Below are positions 39,644 through 44,631 of a DNA stretch of 49,298 nt, in pieces. Both the position numbers and the translations under genes were made by a program. This stretch comes from Clostridiaceae bacterium. Its GTDB lineage: Bacteria > Bacillota > Clostridia > DSM-8532. The DNA lies in contig JAAYFY010000047.1 in NCBI GenBank assembly GCA_012728015.1, positions 1 to 49,298 on the forward strand, read 5' to 3'. The notes beneath the pieces were generated by a model. That model worked only from the letters and a program-made list of their open reading frames with translations. It ran no database searches and was not told the origin of the DNA. The stretch's first letter is position 1; each line of letters starts with the position of its first letter.

Positions 39644-41155
<1,512 letters not shown>

Positions 41156-41414: not shown

Positions 41415-42545
41415 ATGCCGACGGGGGATGTGTTTACTGTGCTGGAAGGTTTGATAGTATTATACAGGCAGCTGGGCGGTGTGGGCACCTTTATAACCCT
41501 GCTGATCATGGTCATCTTTATCGGCGCGTCCTATGCCAATGTACTGGTAAGGCGAAAGTATATCAGCCTTTCGGAAGAACTGGCCGGTTACTGCGCCGGT
41601 GATCTTAAAGCCTTTTCTTCCAGCATGCTTCGCTGGATTGACGAAGAATACCGGGAAGCGGCCAGAAGCGGCCTCTCAGGTATCAATACCCTCTCAATAA
41701 TACAAACGGGCATGGAAATCTTTTTAAAGCCCTGCATACTGGCGGAACGCCTGCTGAAAAAAACCAACGGGCTCCTCATCACCACCGGCCTTTTTGGAAC
41801 ATTTATCGGGCTGACATATGCCGTGGGGAACATGGGCAACATCATGTCCAATACCAGCACCGATACCCTGATGCGTGAAACCGGCGCCGACATCCTGGTG
41901 CTCCTGGTGTCGTCCTTTCAGGGCATGGCCGTGGCCTTTGTGACAAGCCTCTTTGGGACAGGCTTCTCCATCCTCTTCATGATCATCTCCTCCCTGTTCA
42001 GTGCCGCCGGGGCAAAAGATCTGCTGGTAGCCCAGCTGGAAGAATACCTGGATGTAAAAGCGGCATCTGAGGCCATGGAGGAACTGCGGCTGAAAGGGAG
42101 AAAGGATGAGGAACAGGTCCAGAAGACAACACGGGTATTGAACGATGCCATCCGCACCTTCGAGAAGGTGGTGTCAGACTTCTCAGAAAGCCTTAGGGGC
42201 GTCAGGAACTTCAACGAGGATCTCTCCGCCAATATTGACAGGATACAGGCTAGCGCCGGGTTTCTCGCAAGTTCCCTGGACAGGACTTCCGAAACCCTTT
42301 ACGAAAACAGCGTAAGGATCGACAAATGCGCGGGGACGCTGGAATCTGTCTCGGCAGAAATACAGGTCGGAAACCATCGGCTGGAAAACATGGCATCGGT
42401 CATCTCCCAGCTAAGGCTCAGCCTGGATGACTCACGAAAAGACCGGGAAGTATTCCTCAAAACCGTCCATGATATACCCGACAAGCTCTTAAACTACCAT
42501 GAAGCCGCTGTCGCCAGCGTCGACAGGAAGCAGGTGAATCCATGA
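41415..42545 (+). CDS. MotA/TolQ/ExbB-like (ZorA-like) ion-channel subunit
   Basis: Membrane stator subunit, 376 aa from the first ATG. TM1 at about 22-44 (TFITLLIMVIFIGASYANVL), a cytoplasmic loop, TM2 at about 118-140 (GLLITTGLFGTFIGLTYAVG) and TM3 at about 159-193 (ILVLLVSSFQGMAVAFVTSL, FGTGFSILFMIIS). The GTFIGL element is typical of ExbB/TolQ and ZorA channels. Residues from about 195 to 376 form a largely helical cytoplasmic tail rich in charged residues, shorter than in ZorA of Zorya defence systems. The start is uncertain: the ATG at 41415 lacks a clear Shine-Dalgarno and GTG codons at 41430 or 41439 follow GGGGG. It is coupled to the MotB-like gene by ATGA. The load of the motor is unknown. 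Confidence 0.82.
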   Translation: MPTGDVFTVLEGLIVLYRQLGGVGTFITLLIMVIFIGASYANVLVRRKYISLSEELAGYCAGDLKAFSSSMLRWIDEEYREAARSGLSGINTLSIIQTGMEIFLKPCILAERLLKKTNGLLITTGLFGTFIGLTYAVGNMGNIMSNTSTDTLMRETGADILVLLVSSFQGMAVAFVTSLFGTGFSILFMIISSLFSAAGAKDLLVAQLEEYLDVKAASEAMEELRLKGRKDEEQVQKTTRVLNDAIRTFEKVVSDFSESLRGVRNFNEDLSANIDRIQASAGFLASSLDRTSETLYENSVRIDKCAGTLESVSAEIQVGNHRLENMASVISQLRLSLDDSRKDREVFLKTVHDIPDKLLNYHEAAVASVDRKQVNP

Positions 42546-43474
42546 GACTATCAGGATTAAAACGGCAGCCCGAGGAAGAATCTTTCTGGCCTTCCTTTAC
42601 CGATGTAATGTCGTCCCTGGTGTTCGTCCTGTTCTTATTTAGCATAATAATGGTCATACGCCAGATAGTTAATGCCAGCATATGGGATACCAGGCTCCTT
42701 GAGGCTGACCAGGCCCTGGCGGGCAAGCAGCGGCTGCTTGAATCCTTAAACCAAAGCCTCGAATCGGTAAACCGGGAACTGGACATCAAGATGGGACAGC
42801 TGGAGGACCTGGAGAGCACCCTGGGTGAAAAGGAAGCAGAGATAGACATCCTCATGGGCCAGCTGGAGCAGGACAGGGCCGCCCTTTCCCAGAAGGAACA
42901 GGAACTGGCCGAGGTAAGGGCTCGCCTTCAGGAAATATCAGTCCTGCGCCTTAGCATACTGGAACAGGTGAGGGATTCCATAGAAAAAGAGCTGGGACCG
43001 GTCCTTTCTGACAGGGGAGAACCCCTGGTAGCCATTGACCATAACGCAAACCTTGTCATCAACAGCAGCCTGCTTTTCGACAAGGGAAGCAGTCGTATAT
43101 CCCCCGGCGGACACAAGCTTCTGGAGAAGTTCGCGCTGGCTTTTGAAAGGATACTAAGTGATCCGGAAACGAGGAAGAATATAGATTCCATCACCATTAC
43201 GGGATACGCCGATTCCGACGATACCTTCGACTACAACTACGATTTGTCCTGCCAACGCGCAATAGCAGTCATCGTTTCCATGATGAAAAACAACCCGGTG
43301 CTGGAAACCACATACGGAGCCTATTTTCAGGCATCGGGTTTCTCGGAGTTCAGGCCTGTCGCGTTGGGAGAGGACGAAGCCGCCAAGAGCAAGAACAGGC
43401 GCATCCAGATCTCCATCAATATCAAGGACGCCAATATCCAGAATATAATCACCGATTATATGTCAGGGCGGTAG
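42542..43474 (+). CDS. MotB/OmpA-like (ZorB-like) peptidoglycan-binding stator subunit
   Basis: A 310-residue partner of the channel subunit. A single TM helix (about 19-40) carries the likely ion-carrying Asp21 in SFTDVMSSLVFVLFLF, the same place as Asp32 of MotB. A long coiled coil (about 47-140) with KQRLLESLNQSLESV and LEQDRAALSQKEQEL follows on the outside. An OmpA/MotB peptidoglycan-binding domain occupies about 155-305 (LLFDKGSSRISPGGHKLLEK, ITGYADSDDTFDYNY, KSKNRRIQIS). It overlaps the channel gene by ATGA, and its last 26 bases overlap the convergent M20 peptidase gene. No ZorC, ZorD or ZorE gene is present. Confidence 0.85.
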   Translation: MRLSGLKRQPEEESFWPSFTDVMSSLVFVLFLFSIIMVIRQIVNASIWDTRLLEADQALAGKQRLLESLNQSLESVNRELDIKMGQLEDLESTLGEKEAEIDILMGQLEQDRAALSQKEQELAEVRARLQEISVLRLSILEQVRDSIEKELGPVLSDRGEPLVAIDHNANLVINSSLLFDKGSSRISPGGHKLLEKFALAFERILSDPETRKNIDSITITGYADSDDTFDYNYDLSCQRAIAVIVSMMKNNPVLETTYGAYFQASGFSEFRPVALGEDEAAKSKNRRIQISINIKDANIQNIITDYMSGR

Positions 43475-44576
43475 TTATGATGGCCTCAAGGAAACAACAG
43501 GCCTTTTCCATATCGGAAATCCTGATCCTTTCCTCGGTGCTGTGGATCCTGTCCATGCCTACGCTGATGTCCACAGCGGGTATCCCATAGCCGTTTATCA
43601 CGTTGGTATCGCTGCCGCCACCGGTCGCGCGGAGGTTAAGGGGGAGGCCTGCCTTCCTGGCCGCTTCCTTCAGCAGGCAGACAATGGGGCTGGACTCTTC
43701 CAGGCAGTAACCGGGGTACATGCGCTCAACCTCTGTTTCAACGCATCCCCCCAGCTTTTCGGTCACGTCCCGGATATGGTCCAGGATCTCCCTGGTGTAC
43801 CGCTCAAGGCGGTCCTCATGGATGGAGCGCACCTCTCCCTCTACCGTGCAGGTTTCGCTCACAATATTTCGGGCTATGCCTCCGTTGATAATGCCTATAT
43901 TGCAAGTGCTTTCCGCGTCGATGCGACCCATATGGGGCAGCCCCGCAAGGGCTTTGGAGGCCAGTATTATGGCGTTAAGCCCCTTTTCGGGCTCCAGCCC
44001 CGCATGGGCCGCCCGCCCTTTGAATAATACCTTGAACCGGTTGTAGAACGGGGCTTTTACGGCCGCGGTAGCAATAGGACCTTCGTCATCCATGATGAAG
44101 GCATAATCCGCCGGTATCCTGCTGATATCCAGGTTTCTTGCCCCGAACAGCCCGCCCTCCTCGGCCACGGTAAACACCAGGTACAGGTCGCCGTGCGGTG
44201 TTCCATCCTCCTTAAGGGAGCGTATGGTTTCGAGGATAACCGCGATCCCTGCCGCATCATCGCCGCCCAGCACCGTTGTCCCATCGGATCGGATAGTATC
44301 ACCATCAACCACGGGCTTTTTTCCTATACCCGGAGCCACTGTGTCCATATGGGCCATGAGCAGCAAAACGGGCTTTTCGGGTATGCCCGGCACGCGGCAG
44401 ATGACATTTCCCGCATTTCCCCCTATTTTAGACCCTGTATCGTCTTCATACGGATCAAAGCCCATCTCCCTCAGCTTTTTCAAAAGGTGATCGGCCATAT
44501 CCCTTTCCTTTTTGCTCAGGCTGTCAATGCGCGCCATCTCAATGAAACAGTTTGTAAGCCTGTCCCTGCTGATCAA
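43449..44576 (-). CDS. M20-family metallopeptidase (PepT-like)
   Basis: Dinuclear zinc aminopeptidase of the M20 family, 375 aa from the chosen start. Metal ligands and catalytic residues are LLMAHMDTVAPG (His, Asp), LGGDDAAGIA (Asp), FTVAEEGGLFGA (Glu pair), IMDDEGP, and the late His in RIHSTEE; the lid domain carries GRAAHAGLEPEKG. It resembles tripeptidase T-type enzymes. The start is a TTG at 44576 (MISRDRLTNCFIEMARIDS) because AAAGGA is 9 nt upstream and the N-terminus matches the family. Other possible starts are TTG 44582 and ATG 44624. The 3' end overlaps the convergent motor gene by 26 nt. Confidence 0.88.
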   Translation of the reverse strand: MISRDRLTNCFIEMARIDSLSKKERDMADHLLKKLREMGFDPYEDDTGSKIGGNAGNVICRVPGIPEKPVLLLMAHMDTVAPGIGKKPVVDGDTIRSDGTTVLGGDDAAGIAVILETIRSLKEDGTPHGDLYLVFTVAEEGGLFGARNLDISRIPADYAFIMDDEGPIATAAVKAPFYNRFKVLFKGRAAHAGLEPEKGLNAIILASKALAGLPHMGRIDAESTCNIGIINGGIARNIVSETCTVEGEVRSIHEDRLERYTREILDHIRDVTEKLGGCVETEVERMYPGYCLEESSPIVCLLKEAARKAGLPLNLRATGGGSDTNVINGYGIPAVDISVGMDRIHSTEERIRISDMEKACCFLEAIITTALTYNR

Positions 44577-44631
44577 TTTCAACCATCCTTTCCCATGTTC
44601 AAAAATGGCGGTTTGCCTCGGCATGTGCCTT

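Follow-up and report, generated by a model that had tools for sequence, protein, structure and literature searches.

A putative wall-anchored motor of Clostridia related to ZorAB and its TPR-repeat partner gene

Results and Discussion

The gene pair in the window

The window analysed here is a whole stretch of 49,298 nucleotides (contig JAAYFY010000047.1, assembly GCA_012728015.1) from a Clostridiaceae bacterium of the GTDB lineage DSM-8532. A sequence-only reading had pointed to two adjacent genes resembling ZorA and ZorB of Zorya phage defence, and both open reading frames are indeed found at 41415-43474 (Table 1). They are called A and B below, and their reading frames share a 4 nt overlap. 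The neighbourhood consists of gdhA, an M20 peptidase gene, dut, a U32 peptidase gene, a DUF948-like gene (Pfam score slightly below the cut-off) and zapA. As had been claimed, no zorC, zorD or zorE is found among these flanking genes, and the pair, at a fixed chromosomal locus with no defence-gene neighbours, lies outside any defence island. Promoter and terminator scans of the pair gave nothing on the coding strand that exceeded shuffled sequences. Within the genus, dN/dS was 0.09-0.15 for A and 0.09-0.10 for B, similar to that of the adjoining peptidase gene; A and B are kept by purifying selection.

Table 1. Position of the gene pair, the candidate ion-carrying residue and the neighbouring genes in the window.
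Feature	Coordinates	Strand	Evidence and remarks
Gene A, ExbB/ZorA-type channel subunit, 376 aa, short-tailed form	41415..42545	+	ORF, ZorA profile, family alignment, hydropathy
Gene B, MotB/ZorB-type axle and wall anchor, 310 aa	42542..43474	+	ORF, PF00691, ZorB1 profile, AlphaFold2
Codons Thr20, Asp21 and Val22 of B	42600..42608	+	Sequence; Asp21 (42602-42604) is the candidate ion-carrying residue
M20-type peptidase, convergent neighbour	43449..44624	-	Pfam, synteny; not included in the proposed system
gdhA, upstream neighbour	39815..41155	+	ORF, synteny; not included in the proposed system

The product of gene A has hydrophobic segments near residues 20-38, 120-138 and 160-201 by hydropathy, followed by a nearly all-helical cytoplasmic tail spanning roughly residues 205-345. 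Its channel motifs are GLFGTFIGLT (125-134) and GMAVAFVTSLFG (170-181), and a further motif, IPDKLLNYHEAA (354-365), lies at the C-terminus. The match to Pfam MotA_ExbB is weak (E 0.026, below the cut-off), while the ZorA profiles (PADLOC; ZorA1) fit better (2.7e-8) and aligning profiles with A subunits of ZorA and PRK09039 type gave 95-99%. Taken together, these matches identify A as a channel subunit of the MotA/TolQ/ExbB type, with the helical tail that the first reading had described. Four channel residues (G132, M171, T177 and L179) are invariant across 51 family A subunits. The AlphaFold2 model of A is poor (pLDDT 38.8) and unusable, so the topology given here rests on hydropathy and the family alignment. 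The start codon of A is uncertain, as relatives start up to about 9 codons downstream.

Gene B encodes a partner with a single TM helix (about 20-39) carrying the motif FWPSFTDVMS, in which Asp21 is invariant (22 of 22 B proteins), and an OmpA-type domain, PF00691, at residues 178-286 (Pfam 3.8e-9). The description of B as a MotB/OmpA-type subunit with a TM Asp therefore holds. It matches the ZorB1 profile at 5.5e-32, and the AlphaFold2 model (mean pLDDT 68.8) consists of one helix (19-155) followed by the wall-binding domain; its best PDB fold matches are ZorB types I and II (8vvn best), the nearest solved folds being ZorB and MotB. A coiled coil of about 90 residues had been predicted between membrane and wall-binding domain: the helical linker is there, with a hydrophobic heptad signal equalled by only 2 of 500 shuffles, but it spans about 110 residues (ca. 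46-155) instead.

A family at a fixed locus in Clostridia

Searching 391 sampled Clostridia genomes with the A profile gave matches in 57, of which six Zorya-like, partial or weak ones were set aside. The family is thus present in 51 genomes, spread over some 15 families within the class. Among 398 genomes sampled across the phylum there were just four further matches, one of them strong (genome G670), and a contig search with A as query recovered three close relatives. The window pair itself scores 491 bits (profile A1) and 448 bits (B) against the family profiles, with A and B adjacent, and is a member. One outlying locus, L124, was excluded from family counts: it sits on a long branch, lacks the third gene described below and has a different one in its place.

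In one family (f1) the pair adjoins the same convergent block, formed by the M20 peptidase, dut, U32 peptidase and DUF948-like genes and zapA. The sister genus (g2) includes seven genomes without the pair, and the block from M20 to zapA is intact in all seven. Six of them have gdhA as the nearest annotated gene on that side of the block (one of these six has a 210-aa ORF between gdhA and M20), and the seventh has other genes there. The pair is a vertically inherited, fixed chromosomal locus with losses and no mobile island. We found no relatives of A in 50,697 phage records, and carriage by mobile elements was discarded on that ground and because the plasmid matches to B are distant. A link with cell division through zapA was also considered and rejected, as this synteny is confined to f1 and is not seen at the loci of other families; inherited gene order is the more likely reason for it. 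Nor does a sporulation machine fit, SpoIVA being found in 34 of 51 carriers vs 244 of 340 non-carriers (p 0.51, relatedness uncorrected). The survey of gene neighbourhoods in Clostridia, which the sequence-only reading had proposed, revealed this fixed locus in f1 and, in most relatives, a third gene (T); besides T, no conserved neighbour was found among the loci of the 15 families.

The third gene and the length of the tail

Most relatives outside the genus of the window and its sister genus have an operon A-B-T, in which T directly follows B, mostly at gaps of <60 nt. T encodes a soluble protein of about 320 aa (no TM segment) with TPR repeats near the N-terminus, and searches with it gave no notable match to nucleases, helicases or defence profiles. 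The A-B-T operon with its TPR partner is previously unnoticed, and no published description of the clostridial A-B(-T) family was found in the papers searched. The pair had been called standalone; this does not describe the family, whose typical state is A-B-T, the window's genus having a reduced two-gene form.

The presence of T follows the length of the A tail. With L124 omitted, T accompanies 27 of 27 long-tailed A subunits (481-532 aa) and none of the 23 short-tailed ones (289-392 aa), and in a 123-genome sample the T profile was found in A-tail genomes alone (10/10). The Fisher p value of this association (1e-13) is overstated because the relatives are non-independent. The tree offers two independent contrasts, or three at most, and these agree in direction; an independent-pairs test (p 0.5) is without power given 2-3 events. 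Monophyly of the two short-tailed groups is rejected (p-AU 0.0005), so a short tail and the lack of T came to be combined on at least two occasions.

In the B tree the T-less group formed by the window's genus and its sister (g1/g2) is nested inside T-bearing relatives (97/93), from which it follows that this group most likely lost T. The A tree does not place g1/g2 inside the T-bearing group, and the nesting is based on the B tree, taxonomy and synteny. We regard the window's genus as most likely a reduced two-gene form that lost T together with part of the A tail. In the family alignment its short A keeps the C-terminal motif of the long forms, which suggests that the middle of the tail was deleted. 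Neither the window nor the rest of its genome contains T (a weak generic TPR match occurs elsewhere), as expected since this A is short-tailed. An unknown cytoplasmic load had been proposed for the pair; in its relatives, T is a candidate for this load.

Three loci represent a kind of natural dissection of this operon. In L109, A and T are present and B is missing from the operon, which we examined; this one A without B differs from the 51 family A subunits at the four otherwise invariant channel residues, G132, M171, T177 and L179 being replaced by S, I, A and F, and has Lys at 170. In two others (L123:4507-7019 and L125:8010-10456, operons also examined) a single TM helix and a duplicated A-type tail are followed by T, and both channel and B are gone. 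With tail and T kept in the absence of the motor, the output module appears able to outlive it.

Relation to known motors

By profile and structure, ZorAB are the nearest described relatives of the pair, which was rightly called ZorAB-like. The pair shares with ZorA and ZorB of Zorya types I and II (PDB 8VVN, 8VVI, 8QYD) a channel subunit with a helical tail, the TM Asp and the OmpA-type domain, and they are its best PADLOC matches and, for B, the best PDB fold matches. Zorya function needs the ZorA tail, wall binding by ZorB and the ion-path Asp (PMC11890865). The differences are several. Unlike Zorya, the clostridial family has no ZorC, ZorD or ZorE nearby and occupies a fixed core locus; its long-tailed members pair with a TPR gene, whereas Zorya pairs with nuclease/helicase genes; and the distance from the TM Asp to GHxD is 200 residues in the window B and 188-223 in most of the family, but 104-126 in Zorya. 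The B tree splits the family from clostridial Zorya at 100/100, and a quick A tree, with weaker support (81), sets it apart from ZorA, MotA and ExbB/TolQ and groups it with the outlier L124. NCBIfam scores of the window pair are 31.5 bits for ZorA_2 (cut-off 100) and 38.8 for ZorB1 (cut-off 400).

A broken Zorya system was also considered. ZorC (PF15611) was detected in one of 54 genomes searched, mostly carriers, and this genome (G223) has a true Zorya; full-length ZorD was found in G223 alone, the other matches among the genomes searched being to the helicase part and elsewhere in the genome. G223 served as positive control, with a complete clostridial type I locus (L129, G223:C221:1-14000) of ZorA (680 aa), ZorB (244 aa), ZorC (396 aa) and ZorD (1150 aa). 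Neither zorC nor zorD lies just outside the pair in any family member, and we rejected this explanation.

Flagellar MotA/MotB belong to the same superfamily and share a B subunit with TM Asp and OmpA-type wall-binding domain. Unlike flagellar MotA, A has an ExbB/ZorA-like layout and a MotA profile match near nil. Neither trees nor profile comparison clustered the pair with flagellar MotAB; A falls outside the MotA branch, and the window's genome encodes a separate flagellar MotAB, so that the pair was rejected as the flagellar stator. With ExbBD/TolQR, A shares the three-TM layout and the TM2-TM3 channel motifs, but ExbD and TolR, unlike B, have no OmpA domain, and profile comparison with ExbBD/TolQR gave a probability of just 10-23%.

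The PRK09039 “peptidoglycan-binding protein” with its adjacent MotA/TolQ/ExbB gene, for example on pSymB of Sinorhizobium meliloti (L131), is likewise a free-standing pair, and in its B, as in that of the window, a long coiled coil separates the TM helix from the OmpA domain. PRK09039 is the best NCBIfam match of the window B (3.4e-23; 83 bits against a cut-off of 305), and both A and B of this type match the clostridial family profile. These pairs are alphaproteobacterial, have no adjacent T and form a long branch of uncertain position in the B tree; a function for them was not found in the papers searched. Since the window pair lies below every curated cut-off, we place it within the 5:2 superfamily, in neither ZorAB nor PRK09039. 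The family forms its own clade in the trees, in agreement with the proposed separate class of wall-anchored motor, and the comparisons support a separate clade of predicted wall-anchored motors in this superfamily, beyond ZorAB and PRK09039. A published split leaves non-flagellar B subunits without an OmpA-type domain (PMC12505986); the OmpA-bearing, non-flagellar B of this family does not fit it.

A proposed motor and its alternatives

We think it rather probable that A and B form an ion-driven, peptidoglycan-anchored 5:2 rotary motor with a tail coupled to a cytoplasmic partner, in the relatives most likely T. By analogy with known motors, five A subunits would surround two copies of B acting as the axle, whose TM Asp21 would bind an ion inside the A ring. 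The coiled-coil linker of B would extend outwards, with the OmpA domain holding the peptidoglycan wall, and ion flow past Asp21 would turn the A ring together with its bundled cytoplasmic tails. These tails would link the motor to its cytoplasmic partner, in most of the family probably T docked on the tail. In the lineage of the window, an A-B-T ancestor would have lost T and the middle of the tail while keeping the C-terminal motif, and the remaining motor might either drive another partner through this motif or work as a simplified form. A cytoplasmic role without defence or flagellar task fits best. More tentatively, and with somewhat less than even confidence, we would see here a distinct clostridial wall-anchored motor with a tail-plus-TPR output module, for a cytoplasmic task that has no connection with flagella, sporulation or known phage defence; some lineages would have dismantled the motor and kept the module.

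There are other possible explanations. The pair could belong to an anti-phage system not recognised so far, in which a Zorya-like motor acts as sensor; the effector would be T in the relatives and an unlinked gene in the genus of the window. The proximity to ZorAB in profile and structure and the patchy presence in the sister genus speak for it. However, T has no nuclease, helicase or notable defence-profile match, ZorC and full-length ZorD are confined to the same single genome, A has no relatives in the phage records searched, and inheritance is vertical at one fixed site with absences that resemble clean losses, unlike a mobile defence island. We consider this unlikely.

We are similarly doubtful about a static tether between wall and cytoplasm, or a tension sensor, that keeps a MotAB-like fold and is not a rotary motor. 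That tail and T outlive channel and B in L123 and L125 makes a scaffold role without ion flow possible. Against it, wherever B is present the ion-path residues are strictly conserved, and the sole changes occur where B is missing; this pattern points to a channel under selection. That the pair is a secondary stator for flagella or for another form of surface motility is very improbable: carriers are richer in flagellar MotB (36 of 51 vs 108 of 340 non-carriers; odds ratio 5.2, relatedness uncorrected), but 15 of the 51 have no MotB_plug match, including most of a family (f40) that retains A-B-T, and the pair has no flagellar neighbours, besides the separate MotAB of the window's genome, the near-nil MotA profile match and the position of A outside the MotA branch.

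To our knowledge, few 5:2 motors have a known load. If the rotary motor proposed above is correct, the family adds to them one that is widespread in Gram-positive Clostridia, cells without an outer membrane for it to act on. The soluble partner T of most members turns the question of the load into a direct binding test, and the series from A-B-T through A-T with altered channel residues to a channel-less tail with T amounts to a separation of motor and output by natural evolution. It also follows that motor genes alone are insufficient to call ZorAB-like proteins outside the curated families phage defence.

Other ZorAB-like pairs

Several further loci came up in the searches. At L124 (8514-14372) a ZorAB-like pair precedes a 1133-aa protein that matches nothing in Pfam or PADLOC, and this may be a further type of motor. 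L126 and L127 contain ZorAB-like pairs with A of 442-452 aa and B of 207-210 aa, in genomes without a ZorC match and with no obvious Zorya partners adjoining. At L145 (435-6060) two PALP-family (pyridoxal-phosphate) enzymes are encoded after a ZorAB-like pair, without a defence gene. L146 (5406-9671) carries ZorA, ZorB, ZorC and a 276-aa ORF whose match to ZorD is confined to the N-terminal part, and this Zorya locus may be truncated or frame-broken. Finally, on the 7.5-kb mobilizable Psychrobacter plasmid pA17BP1 (L133) an HNH endonuclease gene comes directly after a ZorAB-like pair, an arrangement resembling type II Zorya.
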